Of a DNA stretch of 64,000 bases, positions 31,497 to 63,768 are shown piece by piece (positions within the stretch are counted from its first letter, which is position 1; every line of letters starts with the position of its first letter). The stretch is from Limnochorda sp. L945t (GTDB taxonomy: Bacteria; Bacillota; Limnochordia; Limnochordales; Geochordaceae): contig NZ_CP141615.1 of the NCBI RefSeq assembly GCF_035593305.1, positions 682,001-746,000 of the forward strand, in the 5' to 3' direction. The position numbers were made by a program, and so were the translations under genes. A model generated the notes under the pieces. It was not told the origin of the DNA. It made no database searches and saw only the letters and a program-made list of their open reading frames with translations.

Positions 31497-31856
31497 TGGT
31501 GGAGGTGGGCGGAGTTGCACCGCCGTCCATGAGCGAGGCCACCACGGCACCTACGAGCGTATCCCCCGTTTGCCGGTGCTCGCCGCTGCCCGATCCCGAG
31601 GGCCGGATATGACAGCCGCCAGCTCCCTAGGGTTTCCCCCGGCCGCCCGGGAGCGAGGCAACCGGGGTATCTCGCTCAGATGACGCTCGGCCCTGCGGCG
31701 GCGAGAGGACCGTCAGGCGAGCGTGGCGCCGCCTTACGCGGCAGCCAGTGCGTACTCAGGCTCGGCAGTTATTGACTGCCCTGCGGATTTACGAGTCGCA
31801 GGAGCTCGGCTCGCAGCCATGGCCACCCGCACCCATGTCGAAGCTGACTCACCCCC
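31497..31856 (-). ncRNA. ssrA: Transfer-messenger RNA (tmRNA)
   Basis: The minus strand begins GGGGGTGAGTCAGCTTCGAC and ends in an encoded CCA. The first seven bases pair with CACCTCC before ACCA, and a T-arm (GGTGCAACTCC) precedes the end. The total is 360 bases. The tag reading frame ends ...AEPEYALAAA then TAA, with the YALAA degradation signal; the exact resume codon is uncertain. tmRNA rescues stalled ribosomes together with SmpB, which is encoded just upstream on the same strand. Confidence 0.92.
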
Positions 31857-49529: not shown

Positions 49530-49606
49530 TGGTCGGGGCGCCGGGACTTGAACCCGGGACCTACTGCTCCCAAAGCAGTCGCGCTGCCAAGCTGCGCCAC
49601 GCCCCG
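49530..49606 (-). tRNA. tRNA-Pro (anticodon UGG)
   Basis: The minus strand gives CGGGGCG as the 5' acceptor strand and CGCCCCG-A-CCA at the 3' end. The anticodon arm is CTGCT-TTGGGA-GCAG with anticodon TGG, and the T-arm is CCCGGGTTCAAGTCCCGG. CCA is encoded. The length is 77 bases. Confidence 0.95.
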
Positions 49607-49935: not shown

Positions 49936-49999
49936 GGTACAGGTCGTACCCACAGAGGGACGTCCGTACCTTTGCAACCAAGGCGCCACGGATTATCGT
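49936..49999 (+). promoter_or_regulatory. Inverted repeat and probable promoter of the sdh operon
   Basis: GGTAC-AGGTC-GTACC (49936-49950) is a perfect 5-bp inverted repeat. It is followed by TTGCAA (49972) and TATCGT (49994) with 16 bases between, about 50 bases before sdhA. The repeat could be an operator. Both calls rest on pattern only. Confidence 0.4.
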
Positions 50000-50049
50000 G
50001 GGCTGAGGTGGGCTGCCTGCGCCAATGTCCTGGTTTGGGGGGCTACTGC

Positions 50050-51762
50050 TTGCAAACCTACACGCACGACGTCTTGATCCTGGGAAGCGGCCTGGCCGGC
50101 TTGCGGGCGGCTCTCGAGGTGCTCCACGTCTCGGGCGGGCGGATCGACCTCGGTATCGTCTCCAAGACCCAGCTCATGCGGGCCCACTCGGTTTGCGCCG
50201 AAGGGGGTACCGCGGCCGTCTTGCGGACGGACGAAGGGGACAGCCTGGAGCTGCACGCCTGGGACACCGTCAAGGGGAGCGACTTCCTGGCCGACCAGGA
50301 CGTGGTCTTCCGCTTCGTCGAGGCGATGCCCAAGGAGATCCTGCGCCTCGAGCACTGGGGCATTCCCTGGTCCCGGCGACCTGACGGGCGGATCAACCAG
50401 CGGCCCTTCGGAGGCCACAGCTTCCCCCGGGCGACCTTTGCCGCCGACAAGACCGGGTTTTTCGAGATGCAAACGCTCTACGACACCATCCAGCGCTACG
50501 GGGGCTTCAAGCGGTACGACGAGTGGGTGGCCACGCGGATTCTGGTGAAAGACGGCACGTTCGCAGGCCTCACCGCTTGGGATCTCACCACGGGGGAGTT
50601 CGCCCTCTTCCGGGCCAAGGCCCTCATCATCGCGACCGGAGGGTTTTGCCGCATCTACGGGTTCACGACGTACTCGTACACCGTGACGGGTGACGGCATG
50701 GCGATGGCCTACCGGGCCGGCATGCCGCTCAAGGACATGGAGTTCGTGCAGTTCCACCCGACGGGGCTGGTGCCGTCGGGTATCCTCATCACGGAGGCGG
50801 CCCGGGGCGAAGGGGGCTACTTGCGCAACCGGGAAGGGCGCCGGTTCATGGAGGACTACGCGCCCAAGATGATGGAGCTCGGCCCCCGCGACATCGTGGC
50901 CAGGGCTGAGATGACGGAGATCGAGAACGGGCGAGGGTTCGAGCATCCGAGCGGGCTCGGCTACGTCGAGCTCGACCTCACGCACCTGGGGCGGGAGCGG
51001 ATCCTGGAGCGGCTGCCGCTCATTCGGGAGGTCGCCATCAAGTTCAACGGCATCGATCCCATCGAAAAGCCGTTGCCCGTGCGGCCGGCGGCCCACTACT
51101 CGATGGGCGGTATCCACACGGACATCGACGGCAAGACGCCGGTGGAGGGGATCTGGGCCGCCGGAGAGGCCGCGGCGGTGTCGCTGCACGGGGCCAACCG
51201 GCTGGGCACCAACTCCACGGCGGAGTGCCTGGTATGGGGCTCCATCACGGGGCGCAAGGCGGCGGAGCACGCCATGCACCAGCGCACCATTCCCGACGCC
51301 CCCGTCAGGGAGGCCGAAGAGGAACAGGGTCGGCTGGAGGCGCTGCTGCGCCAGCGGGGCACCGAAAACCTGTACGACATCCGGAGCCGGTTGCGCCGGC
51401 TCATGGACGAGAAAGTCGGCGTGTTCCGGGAGGAGAAGAGCCTGCGGGAGGCGCTCGACGAGGTGCGCGCCCTGAAGGCCCGGATGGGCTCCGTCAAGCT
51501 GGACGACAAGGGCTGGGTCTACAACACCGACCTGGTCTCGGCCCTGGAGCTCCAAAACATGCTGGACCTGGCGGAGGTCATCGTGCTGGGGGCCCTGGAG
51601 CGGCGGGAGTCGAGGGGGGCGCACGCCCGGCGGGACTATCCGAAACGGGACGACGAGCGTTTCCTGGCCCATACGCTCGCCTACCGCAGCGACGACGGAC
51701 CCCGCCTGGAATACCTGCCGGTGACCATCACCACCTGGAAGCCGGTCGAACGCAAGTACTGA
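50050..51762 (+). CDS. sdhA: Succinate dehydrogenase / fumarate reductase flavoprotein subunit
   Basis: 570 residues. The FAD-binding start is DVLILGSGLAGLRAAL, and SVCAEGGTAAV near 55 supplies the FAD-contact region, although the His normally used for covalent FAD is not obvious in the HSVCAEGG context beyond the His itself. FVQFHPTGLVPSG near 235, EGGYLRN near 257, and AAHYSMGGIHTD near 342 contain catalytic residues. The TTG start at 50050 has TGGGGGGCT upstream and gives the family start. The order sdhA-C-D-B differs from the CAB order of Bacillus. Confidence 0.92.
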   Translation: MQTYTHDVLILGSGLAGLRAALEVLHVSGGRIDLGIVSKTQLMRAHSVCAEGGTAAVLRTDEGDSLELHAWDTVKGSDFLADQDVVFRFVEAMPKEILRLEHWGIPWSRRPDGRINQRPFGGHSFPRATFAADKTGFFEMQTLYDTIQRYGGFKRYDEWVATRILVKDGTFAGLTAWDLTTGEFALFRAKALIIATGGFCRIYGFTTYSYTVTGDGMAMAYRAGMPLKDMEFVQFHPTGLVPSGILITEAARGEGGYLRNREGRRFMEDYAPKMMELGPRDIVARAEMTEIENGRGFEHPSGLGYVELDLTHLGRERILERLPLIREVAIKFNGIDPIEKPLPVRPAAHYSMGGIHTDIDGKTPVEGIWAAGEAAAVSLHGANRLGTNSTAECLVWGSITGRKAAEHAMHQRTIPDAPVREAEEEQGRLEALLRQRGTENLYDIRSRLRRLMDEKVGVFREEKSLREALDEVRALKARMGSVKLDDKGWVYNTDLVSALELQNMLDLAEVIVLGALERRESRGAHARRDYPKRDDERFLAHTLAYRSDDGPRLEYLPVTITTWKPVERKY

Positions 51763-51810
51763 CCGGGAACGTCCCTCCCGGCCGTGGGGATTGGAGAGGG
51801 TGAACTCGCT

Positions 51811-52272
51811 TTGGCGCAAGAAGCGACCGCCAGCGTAAGGCCCACGCCCAGGCGCCTGTCGCGCCGGCTGGGGGTGAAGGGCTGGGTCTACGCCGGGCGT
51901 TATCCCCTGGAACGCTACCTGTACACGCTGCACCGCATCGCGGGGCTGGGGCTGATGCTCTATCTCCCGCTCCACGTCTGGGTAACGGGCCAGCGGCTCA
52001 AGGGCCCCGAGGTGTGGGAAAGGACCATGGCGGCGCTGTCCACCCCCGTGTTCCGGTTCGGGGAGTTTTTGGTGCTGGCCGCCTTTCTTTTCCACGCGCT
52101 CAACGGCATCCGGTTGCTCTTGGGCCATCTCGGGTACAGCCTCGGGCGGCCGGCGACACCGGTCTATCCGTATCCTGTGGCGCTCCACCGGCAGCGGCCG
52201 CTGACCTCGATCCTCATGATCCTGGCCGGCGTGCTCATCGCCGTGGGGCTCTGGGAAATCGTGGTGGGCTAG
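51811..52272 (+). CDS. sdhC: Succinate dehydrogenase cytochrome b subunit SdhC
   Basis: 153 residues with three membrane segments (about 44-62, 85-105, 131-150). YTLHRIAGLGLMLYLPLHVW near 38 carries His residues suited to heme ligation and quinone contact, and FLFHALNGIRLL near 93 is typical of SdhC. The TTG start follows GGAGAGGGTGA 7 bases upstream. The 25 polar residues at the start are probably cytoplasmic. Confidence 0.85.
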   Translation: MAQEATASVRPTPRRLSRRLGVKGWVYAGRYPLERYLYTLHRIAGLGLMLYLPLHVWVTGQRLKGPEVWERTMAALSTPVFRFGEFLVLAAFLFHALNGIRLLLGHLGYSLGRPATPVYPYPVALHRQRPLTSILMILAGVLIAVGLWEIVVG

Positions 52273-52273
52273 C

Positions 52274-52675
52274 GTGCTAGCACGTGGGGGGCGAAGCGGT
52301 TTGCGAGAGTCGCGGCTGTGGGCCCTGCATTTGCTGTCAGGAGCGGTGCTCATCGTGCTGTTGTCGGCCCACATGGGGCTCATGCACTACGAGGGCATCC
52401 TGGCGAGCCTTGGCTGGGCGGGGGAGAACGTGCGCGGCTTCGCCTCGGTCGCCCAGCGGGCCAAGAGCACCATCTGGACCGTCTGGTACGTCTTGCTCCT
52501 GGTCTTCGCACTGTACCACGGGCTCTACGGGACCCGGCGGATCCTGCAGGAGGTCTGGCATTCGGCGCGAGCGGCCCGGGTGATCGACACGGTCGTACTC
52601 CTCTTCGGCCTGGTCGTCCTGGTCTACGGGGTGTACACGGCTGTTGCGGCCGCCCGCATGGGAGGGGCGTTTTGA
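52274..52675 (+). CDS. sdhD: Succinate dehydrogenase membrane anchor SdhD
   Basis: 133 residues with three membrane segments (about 17-34, 67-85, 104-124). SAHMGLMHYEG near 31 and FALYHGLYGTRRI near 77 contain the conserved His residues of SdhD-type anchors. It begins at a GTG one base after sdhC ends. Two separate anchor subunits indicate a type A, C or D complex rather than the single-anchor Bacillus type. Confidence 0.82.
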   Translation: MLARGGRSGLRESRLWALHLLSGAVLIVLLSAHMGLMHYEGILASLGWAGENVRGFASVAQRAKSTIWTVWYVLLLVFALYHGLYGTRRILQEVWHSARAARVIDTVVLLFGLVVLVYGVYTAVAAARMGGAF

Positions 52676-52680
52676 GGGCG

Positions 52681-53592
52681 ATGAGCAGAGCATCGGGAAG
52701 CGCTGCTGCGCCGGAGCGCGCGGCCACCGTGGAGCAGGAGGCTCCGTCTACGCCCGCGGCGGGCAAAGGGACCCCGAAGGCGGCCGGCTCCGTCACGCTG
52801 AGGGTGGCCCGGTTCGACCCGTACCGCGATACGGAGCTGCACTGGCAGACGTATCAGGTGCCCACGGTGCCGGGCATGACGGTGCTGGATGCGCTCTTCT
52901 CCGTCAAGGAGCACCAGGATGGTTCGCTGGCCTTCCGGAGCTCGTGCCGCATGGGCGTCTGCGGGTCGTGCGGGATGTTCATCAACGGCAAGCCCCGTCT
53001 CGCCTGCCAGACTCAGGTGGTGGAGCTCGGCGACACCATCGAGGTGGCGCCCCTGCCCAACCACGACGTCATCAGAGACCTGGTGCCGGACCTGACGCCG
53101 ACCTTTGAGAAGCACCGGGCGGTCAAGCCGTACCTGATCCGGCAGGATGGGGCGGAGATGGAGGCTCCGACCCGGGAGTTCCGCCAGACCCCCGAGGAGA
53201 TGGAGGCGTACCTCCAGTTCGCCTATTGCCTCAAGTGCAGCCTGTGCGTGGCGGCCTGCCCGACCGTGGCGACCGACCCGCACTTCCTGGGCCCGCAGGC
53301 GCTGGCGCAGGCCTACCGGTATACTGCGGATTCGCGGGATGGAGGCTGGGCGGAGCGGCTGCCCGTCCTCGACACGACGCACGGCGTGTACGAGTGCCAC
53401 CTGGCCGGGGCCTGCAGCGAGGCGTGCCCCAAGGGGGTCGACCCGGCGTTTGGCATCCAGCTCCTCAAGCGAACGGTGGTGCGGGGCGGGCCGGACCGGG
53501 CGCCGGCGCCCGTGATGGGGCCTCTCCCGCCGCCTTCGGACAAGACGCCTGATGGCAAGCCGAGGCTCCAGGCGCCGCCGCCTACCGTGTGA
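52681..53592 (+). CDS. sdhB: Succinate dehydrogenase / fumarate reductase iron-sulfur subunit
   Basis: 303 residues. A 2Fe-2S site is seen in CRMGVCGSCGMFINGKPRLAC (Cys spacing as in SdhB; core CRMGVCGSCG near 89). CLKCSLCVAACP near 182 and CHLAGACSEACPKG near 239 carry the cluster ligands of the C-terminal domain. The first 40 residues and the last 30 (Pro-rich) exceed the usual length. The ATG start follows GAGGG 3-7 bases upstream. Its end overlaps the convergent methyltransferase gene by 11 bases. Confidence 0.93.
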   Translation: MSRASGSAAAPERAATVEQEAPSTPAAGKGTPKAAGSVTLRVARFDPYRDTELHWQTYQVPTVPGMTVLDALFSVKEHQDGSLAFRSSCRMGVCGSCGMFINGKPRLACQTQVVELGDTIEVAPLPNHDVIRDLVPDLTPTFEKHRAVKPYLIRQDGAEMEAPTREFRQTPEEMEAYLQFAYCLKCSLCVAACPTVATDPHFLGPQALAQAYRYTADSRDGGWAERLPVLDTTHGVYECHLAGACSEACPKGVDPAFGIQLLKRTVVRGGPDRAPAPVMGPLPPPSDKTPDGKPRLQAPPPTV

Positions 53593-55336: not shown

Positions 55337-55969
55337 TCAAAGCTCCTGCAAGACGTCGGCCAGGCGCTCCACCAGCGGAGCGACCTGGCCGGGGCGCGCG
55401 ACGACCCGGCAGTAGACGGCGCCCTCCTCGGGATTGATGCTCACGTGACGCAAGAGCGGGGACGCCCCCGCCTCCACGAGGCGGGTGAGCAGGCGGCGGC
55501 TTTGTTCGCCCGAGTACAGCAGGCGGTAACGATGCCCTCCGCCCGTGACCCAGGCTTCGTGGAGTGCGGCCACATCGCGGATGCGGGGAGCGAGGACGCC
55601 GGGGGCGACCAGGTAGGCGTGGGCGCGGCTGCGCAGCGGCATGTTGGGACGCCACAGCAGGTAAAGGGTGTCATGGCGCCGCCATGCCCACGAGACGGGA
55701 AAGTAGAGCAGGCTGTGGCGGGGCAGGGCGGTCAGGGTCGCCTCCACCCGGTTGAGGTCGCCCCGGCGCACCACGTAGTCGGCGCGATAGCCGATGAGGC
55801 CGCCGATCCACGTGTACCGCTGATCCTTGGGGCGAAGGGCCCGCTCGCACTCGGCCGCGGTGCCGCGGATGATGCGCCAGTTGGCCCTCCGCCCCCACAG
55901 GTACTGCAGGTACGCCGCCCCGCCCAACAAGACGAGCCACCCCATCCACGGAGCCTGCCAGGCGTTCAT
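55337..55969 (-). CDS. Hypothetical membrane-anchored protein of the cstA operon
   Basis: 210 residues. One N-terminal membrane segment (about 8-26) is followed by a basic cytoplasmic part rich in Arg and Leu. No known motif is seen; SWAWRRHDTLYLLWRPNMPL near 93 is distinctive. It begins 4 bases after the ArsA-type ATPase gene and so ends the cstA operon. It may be a partner of that ATPase at the membrane, but this is a guess. Confidence 0.55.
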   Translation of the reverse strand: MNAWQAPWMGWLVLLGGAAYLQYLWGRRANWRIIRGTAAECERALRPKDQRYTWIGGLIGYRADYVVRRGDLNRVEATLTALPRHSLLYFPVSWAWRRHDTLYLLWRPNMPLRSRAHAYLVAPGVLAPRIRDVAALHEAWVTGGGHRYRLLYSGEQSRRLLTRLVEAGASPLLRHVSINPEEGAVYCRVVARPGQVAPLVERLADVLQEL

Positions 55970-55973
55970 GACG

Positions 55974-57029
55974 TTACACCACGTAGGCGGCCACGCGCCG
56001 GAGCGCCTCGACCCCGATGGGCTCGGGGGAGAACAACGGCACGTACCGGGTGGGGTAAGGAAAGACCGGGGCAGTATCAGCTCCGCAGGCCTGGCCGGGC
56101 TCGCCGCCGCGGGGAGCCTTGTTGACCACCACCAGGGCGACCGGGATGCCGAAGGCGGCGAGCTGCTCCAGGGCCCGAGCCGTTTCGACCGTGGACAGCG
56201 GATCGGGGTTCTTCACCATCAACACCCCGCACCTTTCGGGGTCCTGTAGTGCCGCCTGCAGATGCTGCATGGCTTCCCGGTACCGTTGCAGGATCCGGCT
56301 GATGGGGTCGCGCGTCTCGTCGGAGACCAGGACGACCTCTCGTTCGCCGAGGCGGGCGCTTTGAGGCCCCAGCACGTGCTCGACGGCCCGCCGCCGGTCG
56401 AGCAGGGCCCTTCGCACCTTTTGCAGCTGCTCTGCCCACCGCACGGAGAGCCCGGGGAGCGCCAGCACTCGCAGCGTGAGCCCCGTGGGCGGGGTATCCA
56501 CCACGAGGACGTCGGCCTCCCGGGCCCGGGCGCTTTCCAGCAGCCGCCCCATCTCCTCCAGCACCGAGTGCTCCTCGACCCCGGGGGAGTAGCGCAGCGT
56601 GTCGAGATAGCCGTCGAGGTTGAGCACCTGCAGGTATCGATAGGCGTGTTGCACCTCGGAGGAGAGCTTTTCGAGGTAGCGGTCGAGCGCGCGGTCCGTG
56701 TCGACCTCGAGCGCCTCCAGGCCCGGGACGGAGGCAACGGGGGTCGGTTCGGGGCCGAGTGGTGCTCCCAGCACGTCTCCGAGGTTATGGGCCGGGTCGA
56801 TGGAGGCGGCCACCACCCGGAGTCCCTGCCGTGCGAGGTGCACCGCGAGGGCGCCCGCTACCGTGGTCTTGCCCGTACCCCCCTTGCCGAGGGTGAGCAA
56901 GAGCGTGGGCCTGGCGTAACCGGCCCCCGCGGCGTGGCCGGCGCGGCCGAGGACCGACGCCAGGGCGCTCGACGGTGGGGCCACGCGCGGCGGGCCGTCA
57001 GAGGTCGAAGAGCGCTGCAATCTCCGCAT
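55974..57029 (-). CDS. ArsA/Get3-type ATPase
   Basis: 351 residues. The deviant Walker A LGKGGTGKTTVAGALAVHL lies near residue 47, the switch region ASIDPAHNLGDVLG near 74, and the switch II-like DVLVVDTPPTGLTLRVLALP near 173. One ATPase domain is present, without the Cys residues of arsenite pumps, so this is the general ArsA family, not clearly arsenic-linked. No arsB or arsC is nearby. The ATG used overlaps the upstream small gene by 32 bases; a GTG near 56985 is possible. Its place in a cstA operon is unusual. Confidence 0.8.
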   Translation of the reverse strand: MRRLQRSSTSDGPPRVAPPSSALASVLGRAGHAAGAGYARPTLLLTLGKGGTGKTTVAGALAVHLARQGLRVVAASIDPAHNLGDVLGAPLGPEPTPVASVPGLEALEVDTDRALDRYLEKLSSEVQHAYRYLQVLNLDGYLDTLRYSPGVEEHSVLEEMGRLLESARAREADVLVVDTPPTGLTLRVLALPGLSVRWAEQLQKVRRALLDRRRAVEHVLGPQSARLGEREVVLVSDETRDPISRILQRYREAMQHLQAALQDPERCGVLMVKNPDPLSTVETARALEQLAAFGIPVALVVVNKAPRGGEPGQACGADTAPVFPYPTRYVPLFSPEPIGVEALRRVAAYVV

Positions 57030-57264
57030 AGACGTCGTCCATCTCCTGTGCCCGGGCCTTCATGACGGCAAGTTCCCGGCCCATCTCGGGCAAGAGGCGT
57101 AGCGCCAGCGGAGTGGGCGGCGACGGGAGCCCCACGAACGAGCCCAGCACCAACAGGGCGAAGACGTTTTCGAGCTCCCGCCGCTCCGCCTGGATGTAGC
57201 CCACCGCGCGCTGGCGCATCCAGTCGGCGAACAGACGGGCAACCAGCCGCAGCGGGCTTTTCAT
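56998..57264 (-). CDS. Small hypothetical protein between cstA and the ArsA-type ATPase
   Basis: 88 residues, starting one base after the cstA stop. It has a basic start, a Glu/Arg helix, a hydrophobic stretch with Pro (FALLVLGSFVGLPSPPTPLAL) that may enter the membrane, and an acidic end, EIAALFDL. cstA genes are often followed by a small YbdD/YjiX protein, but its Cys/Arg-rich signature is not present here. The family is not recognised. Confidence 0.55.
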   Translation of the reverse strand: MKSPLRLVARLFADWMRQRAVGYIQAERRELENVFALLVLGSFVGLPSPPTPLALRLLPEMGRELAVMKARAQEMDDVYAEIAALFDL

Positions 57265-57265
57265 C

Positions 57266-59020
57266 TCACCGGCCGCCTCCCACGGGCACCCTGGCCAGCT
57301 CGACCCGGCTCTCCCGGTACGAGATGGAGAAGTCGGCCAACAGCAGCAGCGAAAGCGCCGCCATCAGCACGAAGATGCCCTTGATCACGGGCGAGGCGGG
57401 CACGGCCCAGATGTACCATATCACCCCGGCGAACACCGTGATCCACAAGAACACCCCGGCTGCCACCGTAGCCCAGCGATAACCGCCCGAAGCCCGCTGC
57501 ACCTTGACGGCCCACATGGCCGACGTCAGCAGCGCGACGGCCGCCACCATCTGGTTGGCGCCTGCAAAAGCGGGCCAGACGGTATTGTAAGCGCCATCCC
57601 ACGCGAGCCAACCGGCCAGGATGACGACGATGGCGCCGCCGACCCACCGGTTGGCGATGACCCGATGGAAGCCGGGCGACGACTCCTTGAGGGGCTCGAC
57701 CAGCTCCTGCCACGTGAACCGGGCGAGGCGCGTGGCGGTGTCCATGGTCGTCATCACGAACGCGGTCACCCACAGCCCGGCAAACAGGGCCCCGAGGCGA
57801 GGGGCGAGCCCGAAGATCTGGTACAGCAACTCGCCGTAGCTCCGGTTGAACAGCCCCAACGCGCCGCCCACCGGGGCTGCCGCCTTGAGCAGGTTGTTGC
57901 CGAAGTAGATCCGGTCCGCTTTGAGCTGATCGAGCGAGATGCCCGCCTGAGCGAGCTTGTCCGCGACGGTGGACAGCACGGGCATCGCAAAGGCGCCCAT
58001 CGTGACGACGACCAGCGTGGCGAGCAAGCCCTCGGTCAGCATCCCGCCATACCCGATCGGCAGGCCGTGGCTCTCCTTGTCGATCTGCTTGGAGGTCGTG
58101 CCCGAGGCGACGAGCGAGTGAAAACCGGAGAGCGAACCGCACGCGATCACGAGCGGGATGGCCGGCCAGAAGGGCGACGGCACGCCGCCTACCGCCGGAG
58201 CGCTCCACATCGTGAACGCCGGTAGCTGAATGCCTCGGAAGGTGAAGAGGAGTGCCACGACACCGAGCCCCAGCCCCACGAAGAGGATGTACGCGTTGAG
58301 ATAGTCCCGAGGCTGGAGCAAGAGCCAGACGGGCAGGCTGGCGGCCGCCAGCGCGTACAGGCCCAGCACGACGATCCACGTATGGAAGCTGGCATGCCAG
58401 GGCCAGACGTAGCCGACCCACATGGCCAGCGCAGTCAACAGGAGCCCGAGCAGGGTGGCGACGGTAAAGTTCATCTTGTACCGGTAGTACAGCATGCCGA
58501 AGACGACGGCCGCGACGATGAAGAGCAGGCTGGAGGTGGGCACCTCGGGGTTGGCCACGAAGTTGGTGGCAGCGATGCTGATGAAGGCGGCCACGACCAG
58601 GATGAGCGTCACGTAGATGAACACCATCATGGTCCACGAGGTGCGCGGCTTCATGACCTTACCGGCGATCCACTGCACCGATTTACCCTCGCTGCGCACG
58701 GAGGCCATCACCGAGAGGTAGTCATGGACGGCGCCAATGACGACGTTGCCAAACCAGATCCACAGCAGCGCCGGCATCCATCCCCAAACCACGGCGATGG
58801 CCGGCCCGACGATGGGCCCGGCGCCCGCGATGGAGGCGAAGTGGTGGCCGAAGATGGCCAGCGGATGCCCGGGCGCGTAGTCGACGCCGTCGTACATGGC
58901 GTGGGCGGGAGTGGGGCGGCTGTCATCGGCCCGCACTACGGAGCGTTCGAGTCCCCGGCCGTAGGTGAGGTAGGAGACGACGTAGACCGCAACGCCGATC
59001 ACCAGGAGCCACGTAGTCAC
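57266..59020 (-). CDS. cstA: Carbon starvation protein CstA
   Basis: 584 residues with about 15 membrane segments. HPLAIFGHHFASIAGAGPIVGP near residue 52 (core FGHHFASIAGAGPI) and ACGSLSGFHSLVASGTTSKQ near 300 are CstA signatures. The family imports peptides or pyruvate. The GTG at 59020 was chosen because GGAGAGGAGC lies 7 bases upstream. It is somewhat shorter than E. coli CstA (about 700). It heads a four-gene operon with a small protein, an ArsA-type ATPase and an unknown protein. Confidence 0.92.
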   Translation of the reverse strand: MTTWLLVIGVAVYVVSYLTYGRGLERSVVRADDSRPTPAHAMYDGVDYAPGHPLAIFGHHFASIAGAGPIVGPAIAVVWGWMPALLWIWFGNVVIGAVHDYLSVMASVRSEGKSVQWIAGKVMKPRTSWTMMVFIYVTLILVVAAFISIAATNFVANPEVPTSSLLFIVAAVVFGMLYYRYKMNFTVATLLGLLLTALAMWVGYVWPWHASFHTWIVVLGLYALAAASLPVWLLLQPRDYLNAYILFVGLGLGVVALLFTFRGIQLPAFTMWSAPAVGGVPSPFWPAIPLVIACGSLSGFHSLVASGTTSKQIDKESHGLPIGYGGMLTEGLLATLVVVTMGAFAMPVLSTVADKLAQAGISLDQLKADRIYFGNNLLKAAAPVGGALGLFNRSYGELLYQIFGLAPRLGALFAGLWVTAFVMTTMDTATRLARFTWQELVEPLKESSPGFHRVIANRWVGGAIVVILAGWLAWDGAYNTVWPAFAGANQMVAAVALLTSAMWAVKVQRASGGYRWATVAAGVFLWITVFAGVIWYIWAVPASPVIKGIFVLMAALSLLLLADFSISYRESRVELARVPVGGGR

Positions 59021-59249
59021 CGCGCTCGCTCCTCTCCAGAACGCCTCGATGCTCTGCACTTCGGACGCGACTTCCAAGCAGGCTCTACGCGGTTGGCTCG
59101 ACGGAGGGCCGGTGCCGTCCCACCTCCCCTCCGACGCGGGCCGTGCCGGACGGGCCACGGGAGAACCCGGGGTTCAAGGGAGGCGGGAGATAGGAGGGTC
59201 GATGCGGTTGAAACCAGATGAATGCCGTGATACAGGGCTCCCGCCCATT

Positions 59250-60195: not shown

Positions 60196-61143
60196 CTATC
60201 GTCCCCGCAGATGGGGGTCGAGGATGTCCCTTAGCCCCTCGCCGCATCCGTTGATGCTCATGACCAGGAGCAGGATCGCCAGGCCCGGTATCGTCGACAC
60301 CCACCAGGCGTCCACCAGGTGGTCCCGGCCTGCCGCCACCATACTACCCCACGCGGGGACGTCCGAGGGAGCCCCCAGCCCCAGGAAGCTCAGCGAGGCC
60401 TCCATGAGCACCATGTACCCCATCCTCGAAGTGGCGACGACGAGAAGCGTGGGTGCCACGTTGGGCAGGATCTCTTTCCACAGGATCCCGGCGCTCGATC
60501 GGCCGATCGCCCTGGCCGCCTCGACGTAGTCGCGGCCTTTGTGCGCCATCGTCTCGCCGCGAGCGATCCGGAAAAACTCCACCCACGCTTTGAACGACAG
60601 CGCCAGCACGAGATTGACCAAACCCGGCCCCAGGATCCCCATCACGAGGATGGCGAACAGCAGGTACGGAAAGGCCATCAACAGATCGGCGAAACGGGAC
60701 ACCACCTGGTCGAGCCGCCCTCCGAAGTACCCTGCGGCGGTCCCCAGCGCGGTGCCCACGACCCCCGAGATGACCACGGCCGCAGCCCCGACCGCCAGCG
60801 ACAGCCTGGCGCCGTAGAAAAGCCGCGACACGATGTCGCGCCCGAGTTCATCGGTCCCGAGCCAGTGTCCCGGTGCCCACCCTGGCACGGGCCAGGGGGG
60901 CGAAAGGCGCTCCCCCAGGCTGAACGCATCCGGGCCGTACGGGGCGACGACCGGCGCCAGGACGGCCATCCCGGCGAACAGGAGCAACCCGATGGCGCCC
61001 GCGAGCGCCATGGGATGGTGACGCCAGCGGCGCAGCAGGTCGCGCGCCGGGCTCGGCCCGGGCGGCCGAGCGCCCTCGTACCCCTCCGGCACCTCCTCTT
61101 CGGCCACGGCGGCGGGTTGGGCCACGTGAGCAGCCTCGGCCAC
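60196..61143 (-). CDS. dppC: Dipeptide/oligopeptide-type ABC permease (DppC-like)
   Basis: 315 residues. A 45-residue polar start is followed by about six membrane segments; the OppC-type region LGTDELGRDIVSRLFYGARL lies near 97 and the EAA-loop EAARAIGRSSAGILWKEILPN near 206 (core EAARAIG). It contacts the ATPase through this loop. It starts 5 bases after dppB stops. The start (GTG) lacks a clear ribosome site, so it depends on coupling or is slightly different. Confidence 0.9.
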   Translation of the reverse strand: MAEAAHVAQPAAVAEEEVPEGYEGARPPGPSPARDLLRRWRHHPMALAGAIGLLLFAGMAVLAPVVAPYGPDAFSLGERLSPPWPVPGWAPGHWLGTDELGRDIVSRLFYGARLSLAVGAAAVVISGVVGTALGTAAGYFGGRLDQVVSRFADLLMAFPYLLFAILVMGILGPGLVNLVLALSFKAWVEFFRIARGETMAHKGRDYVEAARAIGRSSAGILWKEILPNVAPTLLVVATSRMGYMVLMEASLSFLGLGAPSDVPAWGSMVAAGRDHLVDAWWVSTIPGLAILLLVMSINGCGEGLRDILDPHLRGR

Positions 61144-61148
61144 GGCCG

Positions 61149-62162
61149 TCAGGCGGAGGCCATGCGCGGGTTGAGCAGCGCGTAGGCGAGGTCGACCAGT
61201 AGATTGGCGGCCAGGAAGGTCAGCGCGTAGAGCATGACCGCTCCCTGGACGACCGGGTAGTCGCGCGCGAAGATGGCCCCCACCACCAGCCTTCCGAGGC
61301 CGGGCCAGCTGAAGACCGTCTCGACGATCATGTTGCCACCCAGCAATACCCCCATCTGCAGCCCCAGCACGGTCACGGCCGGTACCAGGGCATTGCGCAG
61401 GGCATGCCGGAACACCACGTGCCACTCGTCCACCCCCTTCGCCCGGGCTACCCGGACATAGTCGGCGCGCAGTACCTCGAGCATGCTCGATCGCACGACC
61501 CGCGAGAGGATGGCCGCCAGCTCCGCTCCCAGGGTCACGGCCGGCAGGATCAGGTGCAGCACGGCCGAGCGAAACACTTCCCAGTCCCGCGCGAGCAACG
61601 CGTCGATGGTCATCCACCCCGTGACGGCCGGCACGTCCATGCCGGGGTCGAGCCGGCCCGAAGTGGGCAGCCATCCCAGCGCGACCCCGAAGACCAGGAT
61701 GAGCACGAGCCCCAGCCAGAAGGCGGGCATGGAGATCCCGGCGAACGCCGCGCCCATGGTTGCATGATCCAGGAAGCTGCGGTGGCGCAAGGCAGCGATC
61801 ACCCCCGCCGGCACCGCGACGAGCACGGCAAAGACCCCTGCTGCCACCGCCAGCTCCAGGGTCGCCGGCAGCGACTGCCCGATGAGCTCGGTCACCGGCT
61901 GGGAGTTGCGGATGGAGCGCCCCAGGTCCCCGTGCAGCAGCCTGCCGGCGAAGCGCACCGCCTGTTGCCCCAGCGGGCGGTCGAGGTCGAGCTGGGCCCG
62001 AAGCGCCTGGATTTCCTGTTGGCTGACGTTGCCGGCCTGGCCCATCATGGCGTCCACCGGGTCCCCCGGCAGCAGCCGCAACAGCAAGAACGTCAGCAAC
62101 ACGACGCCGGCTGCCAGCGGCACCGCCGATACCAGCCGGCGCACCACGCGCACGCCTTTCAC
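61149..62162 (-). CDS. dppB: Dipeptide/oligopeptide-type ABC permease (DppB-like)
   Basis: 337 residues with six membrane segments. LLRLLPGDPVDAMMG near 27, LPATLELAVAAGVFA near 98 and the EAA-loop ADYVRVARAKGVDEWHVVFR near 232 are standard for the DppB/OppB family, as is the end AYALLNPR. The GTG start follows AAGGGAGAG. It lies 31 bases after the binding-protein gene. Confidence 0.92.
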   Translation of the reverse strand: MKGVRVVRRLVSAVPLAAGVVLLTFLLLRLLPGDPVDAMMGQAGNVSQQEIQALRAQLDLDRPLGQQAVRFAGRLLHGDLGRSIRNSQPVTELIGQSLPATLELAVAAGVFAVLVAVPAGVIAALRHRSFLDHATMGAAFAGISMPAFWLGLVLILVFGVALGWLPTSGRLDPGMDVPAVTGWMTIDALLARDWEVFRSAVLHLILPAVTLGAELAAILSRVVRSSMLEVLRADYVRVARAKGVDEWHVVFRHALRNALVPAVTVLGLQMGVLLGGNMIVETVFSWPGLGRLVVGAIFARDYPVVQGAVMLYALTFLAANLLVDLAYALLNPRMASA

Positions 62163-62193
62163 CCGTACTCTCCCTTCTGGGGTGCCGTCGGCC

Positions 62194-63768
62194 TCACCGG
62201 ACGGCGTAGCCCGCCTCCTGCAGGAGCTGGCGCGCCTTGTCGGGGTCGTACGGGTAGGGCTTCAACCGTTCGTCGTAGCCGAAACCGCTCGGCAGCATGG
62301 CCGTTGCGACCCGGTGCGCGTACCCCCGGTAAAGGGCTTCGAGGATCTCGTCCCAGTCGACGGCGTAGTTGAGCGCCCGGCGAACCCGGGGATCCTTCAA
62401 GCGGTCGTTGTTGAGCTCGATCTCGTAAAGCCGCGTGCCGGGCGCCACCTTGACCTGCACGCCCCGTGCCCTCTCCAGCCGGTCGACCGCGTCGGGCGGC
62501 ACCTCCTGGATGATGTGCGCCTCCCCGGCCAGCAGGGCGGCGATGCGGCTGCCCGGTTCGGGCATCATGCGGAAGACGATCCGGCGGATCCTGGCCGGCC
62601 CGACCGGCGGGAGTTGGGGCGAACCGCCGTAGTAGCCGTCGAATCGCTCCAGCACGATGTCCCCGTCGAGGCGGCCGCGCACGAACTTGAACGGCCCCGC
62701 GCCCACGGGATGCCGGACGAACCCGGCGAGGCCCACTTGCTCCATGTACTTGTGCGGCACGATCTGCGTGTGGACGAGCAGTTGCAGGAAGACGGGGGAA
62801 GGGTTTTTCAACGTCATCTTGACGGTGTAGTCGTCCACTTTCTCGACTTTGGACAGGGGCCCCAGCAGCCCGAGCCTGGGCGACGGGCGGCCGTCGAGCC
62901 CCTTTGGGGAGAGGATGCGCTCGAACGTGAAGACCACGTCCTCGGCGGTCAACGGGTCACCGTTGTGGAAGCGGACGCCTCTGCGCAATTTGAATACATA
63001 CGTCGTGGCATGGGGCTGCTGCCACGACTCGGCGATTTCCGGGACGACCTCGCCGTCGGGGGTGCGGGTCACCAGCCCGTCGAACATGTTGCGCAGCACC
63101 GTCTCGGTGTCCCGATCCCGGTGATCGGCCGGGTCGAAGCTCTGGATACGATCGGCGCGTAAGCCCACGACGAGGGTGGTGCCGCCCTGGAGTTCCACGT
63201 CGTGGAGATTGATGCGGTTGTCGACCGAGGGGCGCCAGTTGCTCACCCGGGCCGACGCCGCCTCGATGGTGTCGAGGTAGTATCCGAAGATCCAGGGTGC
63301 ATCCTCGTACAGGATGCGCTGCGCCTTCACGTAGGCGTCCCGGGCCTTGGCCTCGTCCATGGTGGTCGACGCTGCGTCGAAGAGCCGGTCGACTTCCGGA
63401 TTGGAGTAAAACGAGAAGTTGCCGCGATCTTGCGTGCGCAGCTTGGGAATGGCCAGATCGAACGGCGAGAACGTGGCGCTTCCCCAGTCGGTGGCGTAGG
63501 CGTCTCGGGTGCCTTCTTGCGCCTCGGCGAGAAGCGTTTGGTATTCCCACACCCGGACCTGGGCGTCCACCCCGATCTGCCGCAGGTACCCTGCGATGGC
63601 CTGGAGCTCGGCCTCCCGGTTCTTGGCTCCGTCGAGCACGAGCCGGAGCACCTTGCCCTGGGCGAGCGCACCACCGGAAACGCTGCTCGACAGGCCTACC
63701 AGCAGGCTCGCCAGGAGCGCGGGCCACGCCAGAGCCTGCCCCCACCGGGACTGCGTGCGTCGAGCCAT
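62194..63768 (-). CDS. Circularly permuted dipeptide-type ABC substrate-binding protein
   Basis: 524 residues of the SBP_bac_5 (DppA/OppA) family in permuted order. A signal peptide ends near residue 36 (GALA). Residues of about 39-193 (LRLVLDGAKNREAELQAIAG through DNRINLHDVEL) correspond to what is normally the C-terminal part. After QGG, residues 196-524 correspond to the normal mature N-terminal part: TTLVVGLRADRIQSFDPAD, FDGLVTRTPDGEVVPEIAESW, GVRFHNGDPLTAEDVVFTF near 264, through RRALNYAVDWDEIL near 463. The chain stops at YDPDKARQLLQEAGY, exactly where the usual protein would continue into the part found at the front. Both termini of normal family members lie in the same lobe, so the fold can tolerate this. 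The reading frame is continuous, and the permease genes follow, so it is probably functional. Confidence 0.85.
   Translation of the reverse strand: MARRTQSRWGQALAWPALLASLLVGLSSSVSGGALAQGKVLRLVLDGAKNREAELQAIAGYLRQIGVDAQVRVWEYQTLLAEAQEGTRDAYATDWGSATFSPFDLAIPKLRTQDRGNFSFYSNPEVDRLFDAASTTMDEAKARDAYVKAQRILYEDAPWIFGYYLDTIEAASARVSNWRPSVDNRINLHDVELQGGTTLVVGLRADRIQSFDPADHRDRDTETVLRNMFDGLVTRTPDGEVVPEIAESWQQPHATTYVFKLRRGVRFHNGDPLTAEDVVFTFERILSPKGLDGRPSPRLGLLGPLSKVEKVDDYTVKMTLKNPSPVFLQLLVHTQIVPHKYMEQVGLAGFVRHPVGAGPFKFVRGRLDGDIVLERFDGYYGGSPQLPPVGPARIRRIVFRMMPEPGSRIAALLAGEAHIIQEVPPDAVDRLERARGVQVKVAPGTRLYEIELNNDRLKDPRVRRALNYAVDWDEILEALYRGYAHRVATAMLPSGFGYDERLKPYPYDPDKARQLLQEAGYAVR

Follow-up and report, generated by a model that had tools for sequence, protein, structure and literature searches.

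A four-gene operon around a CstA-family transporter

The window analyzed here is a 64-kb stretch (64,000 nucleotides) of the genome of Limnochorda sp. L945t (contig NZ_CP141615.1, positions 682,001 to 746,000), whose minus strand carries, in this order, the genes cstA, cstX, arsA and cstY, encoding a CstA-family transporter, a small protein, an ArsA/Get3-type ATPase and a 210-amino-acid (aa) protein with a predicted CCDC47-like fold (Table 1). The measured intergenic gaps are +1, −32 and +4 nucleotides, in agreement with the one-strand spacing of −32 to +4 reported in a first-pass annotation made from the sequence letters. That annotation had also pointed to the absence of YbdD/YjiX, the usual partner of CstA, and indeed none of the 18 genomes searched, that of L945t included, gave a match to the corresponding family (PF04328) at E ≤ 0.01, while 2 of 14 control genomes, E. 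coli among them, did. Two proteins of the operon had been described as unknown: the 210-aa protein has no match in domain-family searches, but both had been named, as CstX and CstY, by Castillo and Saier (2010, PMC2963123).

Table 1. Coordinates of the operon genes and of motifs within their products
Feature	Position	Strand	Description
cstA	57266..59020	-	584 aa, GTG start at 59020; CstA-family transporter; PF02554 E 2.2e-127
cstX	56998..57264	-	88 aa; predicted helical hairpin; distant cory-CC-star relative
arsA	55974..57029	-	351 aa; single-domain ArsA/Get3-type ATPase; PF02374, TIGR00345, PDB 3ug6
P-loop GKGGTGKT, ArsA residues 48-55	56865..56888	-	invariant columns in 19 operon ArsAs
DPAHN, ArsA residues 78-82	56784..56798	-	conserved columns in 19 operon ArsAs
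DTPPT, ArsA residues 178-182	56484..56498	-	conserved columns in 19 operon ArsAs
cstY	55337..55969	-	210 aa; putative N-terminal membrane helix and alpha/beta domain; CCDC47-like predicted fold
likely CstY membrane helix, about residues 8-25	55895..55948	-	model helix 5-45; weak hydropathy in window copy
WIGG motif, CstY residues 54-57	55799..55810	-	W54, I55, G56 and G57 invariant in 22 aligned sequences

The window operon has the make-up of the cstA-cstX-arsA-cstY operon described in 2010, with the same four genes and matching sizes (about 90, 330 and 210 aa; PMC2963123). The 88-aa protein was equated with CstX by its size, its position and the presence of two such genes in a Thermococcus locus (L071), as in the paper. 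Judged by its relatives in tblastn searches, the 210-aa protein matches the description of the archaeal CstY: it is similar to proteins encoded at the fourth operon position in Thermococcus (L071, 30%, E 1e-36) and Archaeoglobus (L072, 35%, E 3e-32). Castillo and Saier (2010) counted 26 cases in which CstA is accompanied by an ArsA homologue, CstX being present in 24, and reported the ~210-aa CstY, with one transmembrane (TM) segment, in five archaea only, four of them with arsA; the part of the article available to us gives no fold for CstY, which we find in a Limnochordia bacterium and several other bacterial phyla and for which we propose one.

Distribution of the gene set

CstY was chosen for tracing the gene set as its least known component. 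A four-sequence profile, built on the window genome and on three relatives, matched 7 of the 398 genomes of the same phylum at E ≤ 0.01, the window genome among them (five strong and two marginal matches), and the nearest named genome is that of Limnochordaceae bacterium Bu05, with a CstY 98% identical. A scan of named genomes with a six-sequence CstY alignment yielded 21 loci, from bacteria (Limnochordaceae, another Bacillota, Halanaerobiales, Caldisericum and other Caldisericota, Cryosericum, Dehalococcoidia, Synergistales/Synergistaceae, a Deltaproteobacterium labelled Myxococcota in the CstA tree, one Spirochaetes and one Hydrothermota bacterium, and bacteria without a phylum in their title) and from archaea (Thermococcus and Archaeoglobus). 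According to local profile searches, cstA-cstX-arsA-cstY stand in the same order and on the same strand at 16 of these loci; among the remaining five, L085 and L086 start at contig edges, L075 keeps an ArsA remnant only, and at L088 and L089 CstY is without such a neighbour. Two of the loci lie on the same contigs as other stretches that were read (L070 with G125, L075 with G255).

CstY is present in 84 of 115 genomes of the Thermococcus genome's phylum, where the full four-gene order was found at all 20 selected loci, and in 13 of 198 sampled genomes of the phylum of the L088 spirochaete. Eleven stretches from the latter sample, the L088 genome itself and G584 (a 28-residue match) being left out, comprise five full operons, two with a divergent cstY beside cstA and no CstX or ArsA, and four in which CstY is by itself, in one case on a contig of 6 kb. 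The first-pass annotation had asked whether the set is conserved beyond this genome; it is, widely and across phyla, and because its order recurs across phyla the association of the genes goes beyond chance.

The window CstA is the only PF02554 match in its genome, and crudely counted from hydropathy it has 13 TM-like segments. A tree of 49 CstA rows was computed without two duplicate loci and 13 others of the Thermococcus phylum; 35 of its rows form a single branch (support 100/100) that includes both archaea and bacteria. Thirty-two of these are accompanied by ArsA and CstY, L068 by CstY and an ArsA remnant, and two have CstY elsewhere in the genome.

Two variant arrangements were also seen. 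In a Halanaerobiales genome (L075/L068), a 75-aa ArsA remnant with the motif DTAPTG lies between cstA and cstY, and CstX is absent. Seven genomes of the window's phylum (L060-L066) have cstA-cstX-arsA-arsA, with tandem ArsAs and, near some of them, a second CstX-like gene; tandem ArsAs are also reported for Symbiobacterium (PMC2963123).

The ArsA/Get3-type ATPase

ArsA matches PF02374 (ArsA_ATPase, E 1.4e-45) and exceeds the cut-off of TIGR00345 (GET3_arsA_TRC40, 182 bits, cut-off 135). The nearest PDB sequence is 3ug6 (E 7e-37), the archaeal Get3 of Methanocaldococcus, with the P-loop and switch stretches aligned. An alignment of 19 operon ArsAs has invariant G48, K49, G50, G51, G53, K54 and T55, then D78, A80, H81 and N82 (P79 nearly so), and D178, P181 and T182 (T179 nearly so). 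The three motifs to which these residues belong, GKGGTGKT, DPAHN and DTPPT, are presumably Walker A, switch I and switch II, and ATPase activity is expected because they are conserved throughout the alignment. The CxxC zinc motif, a feature of the eukaryotic-type Get3 tail-anchored targeting factor, is missing from 18 of the 19 proteins, and its sole instance (L084) is close to the C-terminus. Searching the L945t genome with ArsA retrieved the protein itself and a single short hit of 64 residues (46%).

The ArsA family name, and nothing else in our data, would suggest arsenite or metalloid efflux with CstA acting as an unusual export channel. The arsenical-pump equivalog TIGR04291 is matched with 104.1 bits against a cut-off of 650, the window protein being single-domain and the pump two-domain, and no ars gene was recognized by eye in the surrounding translations, of which no family search was made. 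The published operons likewise contain no arsR (PMC2963123). Arsenite export was rejected on the unmatched TIGR04291 and the absence of recognized ars genes, and we regard it as highly improbable.

CstX, a distant relative of cory-CC-star

The sole family match of the window CstX is NF041419 ('cory-CC-star'; 22.5 bits, E 8e-5), below the cut-off of 80. NF041419 is matched at E ≤ 1 by 16 of 17 operon CstX sequences, and hhalign relates these 17 to ten CC-star-type relatives with a probability of 97.7%, so that CstX is, by its sequence profile, a relative of cory-CC-star. It is not a member, because of its low score and because none of the 17 ends in the Cys-Cys pair found at the C-terminus of five of the ten CC-star-type relatives. 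Such an end occurs in the CC-star-type CstX proteins of L056-L059, and some CC-star proteins share it with YbdD/YjiX. CstX itself was rejected as a YbdD/YjiX homologue, the hhalign probability against eight YbdD/YjiX sequences being only 1.3% (0.3% for the CC-star-type relatives against the same set); it replaces YbdD in gene order only.

The CstX model consists of two helices (residues 4-40 and 51-85) forming a helical hairpin, with a predicted local distance difference test score (pLDDT) of 76 and a predicted template modelling score (pTM) of 0.41, and Foldseek returned no structure match at E ≤ 0.001. CstX was described as a one-TM protein (PMC2963123); a hydropathy of at least 1.6 is reached by only 3 of the 17 sequences. 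In one genome of the same family (G001), cstX has an in-frame TAG (L033:3694-3696) inside an otherwise conserved LPSPP stretch, which may be a nonsense mutation or an assembly error.

CstY and its predicted fold

The AlphaFold2 model of CstY, computed from 22 sequences, has a pLDDT of 91.2 and a pTM of 0.85 and comprises a long helix (residues 5-45), whose initial portion would anchor the protein in the membrane, followed by an alpha/beta domain. In 16 of the 22 aligned sequences the hydropathy over 19 residues peaks at 1.6 or more inside this helix, whereas the window copy peaks at just 1.1, at residue 118 and outside it; the membrane anchoring claimed for the 210-aa protein by the first-pass annotation is therefore plausible but not certain for the window copy. 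The helix is followed by the invariant residues G26, R27 and N30, and the arginines directly after it suggest that the globular domain is cytosolic. Relatives of CstY and CstX were also sought in plasmids, with none at E ≤ 0.1.

When the CstY model was compared with the PDB using Foldseek, the sole match under E 0.001 was chain 7tm3_4 (E 3.8e-6, probability 1.00), with TM-scores of 0.64 (query) and 0.42 (target) and 11% identity; chain 7 of 6w6l came second (E 0.03, probability 0.98). VIA-align, for which best Z values of 7-8 are common by chance according to the tool's own note, ranked 7tm3_4 first (Z 15.1, 203 residues, 3.2 A), followed by 9i78_4 (Z 13.7, 200 residues), the mycobacterial protein TtfA (6t84, Z 9.3, 145 residues) and 6w6l_7 (Z 8.9, 177 residues), the next being an unrelated chain (Z 7.2). 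Judged by their titles, 7tm3, 9i78 and 6w6l are ribosome-translocon complexes of types in which CCDC47 is present, and the range of 9i78_4 (76-363) fits the 'residues 76-370 of CCDC47' of PMC12572126, from which we infer that the matched chains are CCDC47; the multipass-translocon paper examined makes no mention of 7TM3 in the part available.

The predicted fold of CstY thus appears CCDC47-like. CCDC47, hitherto reported from eukaryotes alone, is a subunit of the PAT chaperone complex in the multipass translocon of the endoplasmic reticulum, and the likeness extends over about 200 of the 210 residues of CstY and to the plan of a TM helix followed by a globular domain. CstY resembles, more weakly, TtfA, which occurs in complex with MmpL3, a multipass transporter, and whose essential part comprises residues 1-205, N-terminal TM included (PMC6593404), the TtfA system differing in its transporter family. 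A sequence link with either protein was sought in profile and sequence comparisons and not found: CstY has no detectable similarity to CCDC47 and no match to the TtfA PDB chain at E ≤ 10. Since no sequence similarity backs the fold match, we treat homology between CstY and CCDC47 as hypothetical and do not class CstY as a CCDC47 member. TtfA, CCDC47 and CstY may possibly form one fold family; the available part of the TtfA paper (PMC6593404) is without mention of CCDC47.

Gene calls and surroundings of the operon

An alternative, earlier GTG at 59158 would extend CstA to 630 aa. A promoter and terminator scan of the operon was uninformative, with a single promoter-like site, within cstA, and no terminator. 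From translations read by eye, one of the two flanks (49972-53592 and 60196-63768) holds a succinate dehydrogenase/fumarate reductase-like cluster, and the opposite flank holds genes of oligopeptide-type ABC transporters. Elsewhere in the window are a tmRNA gene (31497-31856) and a tRNA-Pro gene (49530-49606).

Proposed function of the operon

CCDC47 and TtfA are both membrane-anchored and act on multipass proteins, and this, together with the link to CstA, suggests that CstY could be an assembly or accessory subunit of the transporter. We propose that the four genes would encode one membrane system centred on CstA. CstY, with one helix in the membrane and its CCDC47/TtfA-like domain in the cytosol, would hold or chaperone CstA during its assembly or operation, and the ArsA/Get3-type ATPase, as a dimer, would be tied to the complex by the helical hairpin of CstX. 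ATP cycles of ArsA would then assemble, stabilize or switch CstA, the transport stroke itself not being powered by ATP. In this picture we infer every physical contact, the dimeric state of ArsA, the topology, how CstX acts and what ATP hydrolysis brings about. That the operon is an accessory module, assembling CstA or maintaining its competence, with CstY as the membrane subunit and ArsA-CstX as the ATP-driven part, is in our judgment an even call.

Precedents for small and NTPase partners of CstA-family transporters support this reading. In E. coli, btsT is followed by yjiX and then by the P-loop GTPase gene yjiA, and the order is the same in Rahnella (L091, L092); it parallels the succession of transporter, small protein and P-loop ATPase seen here. 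Both kinds of NTPase, the ArsA-type ATPase and the YjiA-type GTPase, belong to the SIMIBI class. The E. coli systems differ, however, in that their small proteins YbdD and YjiX are unlike CstX, YjiA is annotated as a GTPase and not an ArsA ATPase, and no CstY-like gene is listed beside them. At cstA-ybdD, pyruvate uptake by CstA requires YbdD, 20% of the wild-type level remaining in its absence (PMC5847655).

Several observations weigh against our proposal or limit what speaks for it. First, the presence of CstA in all ten CstY-bearing genomes searched, picked mostly for absence of the linked set, speaks for it, but weakly, since 7 of 14 control genomes have CstA too. Also in its favour are the pairwise distances among the four proteins, which correlate with r 0.83-0.90 against a permutation maximum of 0.28 (for 34 of 44 complete loci, ten Thermococcus-phylum loci having been dropped to reduce their weight), a correlation that includes shared species history. 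Second, the partners come apart. At five spirochaete loci (L088, L144-L146, L154) and at the Hydrothermota locus L089, CstY is found apart from CstA and may thus have other partners; the stretches read at L056-L059 contain CstX-ArsA pairs and no cstA, CstA being elsewhere in those genomes. Adjoining the divergent cstY of the spirochaetes L152 and L153 are CstAs that fall outside the main operon-type branch, beside L055, in a region where the program warns of long branches (near L152/L153/L055 and at L087-L156). Third, the likeness to CCDC47 rests on the predicted fold: PF07946 (CCDC47) matches none of the 22 CstY sequences at E ≤ 1 and exceeds its cut-off in none of 18 genomes, where three sub-threshold matches occur, one of them on the CstY of G004 (E 0.225, 36 model positions); sub-threshold matches were also obtained in 2 of 14 controls. 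CstY also lacks the part of CCDC47 that precedes the TM helix, and its model stops at the end of the globular domain, after which CCDC47 has the latch helices located at the ribosome and Sec61 (PMC12572126). Finally, no counterpart of Asterix was found; CstX, tried as its equivalent, has a weak model that matches no structure.

In eight of the ten CstY-bearing genomes CstY is not preceded by ArsA; seven of these show only short P-loop matches and no ArsA of the operon type was found in them, although draft genomes can hide genes (the G453 contig ends inside cstA), and in G662 such an ArsA lies on a separate contig, near a CstA. These genomes speak for our proposal. Because CstA accompanies CstY in genomes where no such ArsA was found, CstA looks to be the steadier companion of CstY, with ArsA-CstX separable from it, and ArsA is probably not needed wherever CstA and CstY both exist. 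This bears on the suggestion of Castillo and Saier (2010, PMC2963123) that CstX couples ATP hydrolysis by ArsA to CstA, which would thus be driven directly, as ArsB is by ArsA. The operon linkage, the co-evolution published in that paper and the conserved ATPase motifs speak for it. However, main-branch CstA is also present in G452 and G453, where no such ArsA was found, and energization leaves CstY without a role. To our knowledge, E. coli K-12 has no ArsA. Its CstA-YbdD imports pyruvate (PMC5847655), the annotation of BtsT is pyruvate:H+ symporter, and neither gene has an ArsA listed next to it. Since relatives of CstA appear to work without ArsA, we favour direct energization less and consider it unlikely.

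The first-pass annotation had pictured a transport or membrane-insertion module. The linkage fits an ATPase and a membrane protein serving CstA, and the CCDC47-like fold fits the insertion half of that picture, which is partly supported; the genomes with CstA and CstY where no ArsA of the operon type was found speak against a general need for the ATPase. A broader version would be a general Get3/PAT-like module for membrane-protein targeting or insertion, with clients beyond CstA and cstA encoding a co-regulated major client, as suggested by the Get3-family ATPase, the CCDC47-like CstY and the CstY loci without cstA neighbours. The linkage to a single transporter family in archaea and bacteria argues against it, as do the constant presence of CstA in the CstY-bearing genomes (with the caveat of the controls), the rarity of CxxC in the ArsAs and the missing latch helices, and we find this version quite unlikely. 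It is also conceivable that ArsA-CstX-CstY is not an assembly factor and is instead a regulator switching CstA off and on according to energy charge, given a nucleotide-binding protein and a globular domain at the transporter, the carbon-starvation context of CstA and the genomes with CstA and CstY where no ArsA of the operon type was found. The fold relatives of CstY are, however, assembly or transport partners, and such a regulator seems to us very unlikely.

Beyond a module dedicated to CstA, a bolder reading would make CstY a prokaryotic homologue of CCDC47, a PAT-like chaperone subunit working with a Get3/ArsA ATPase and a hairpin adaptor on CstA, and would have the eukaryotic multipass-translocon chaperone descend from such a factor; we rate this as doubtful. 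PAT components were reported to be absent from prokaryotes (2022, Nature, PMC9630114), and a 2026 review found the PAT complex to be without obvious bacterial homologues and the bacterial shielding of marginally hydrophobic helices largely uncharacterized (PMC13261788). The available parts of these two papers and of PMC12572126 and PMC7505659 propose no prokaryotic CCDC47 homologue, and a search of the open-licence PMC literature found no work on CstX or CstY beyond PMC2963123. The gene set is thus known, while bacterial CstY and the fold link to CCDC47 appear new within that literature.

Encoded next to its probable multipass client and to a Get3-family ATPase, a protein like CCDC47 would constitute a small, genetically tractable model of such chaperoning, with Thermococcus as one example of a host, and the fold likeness of CstY would offer a hypothesis on the origin of CCDC47. 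The association of CstA with ArsA, a puzzle since 2010, becomes a testable question.

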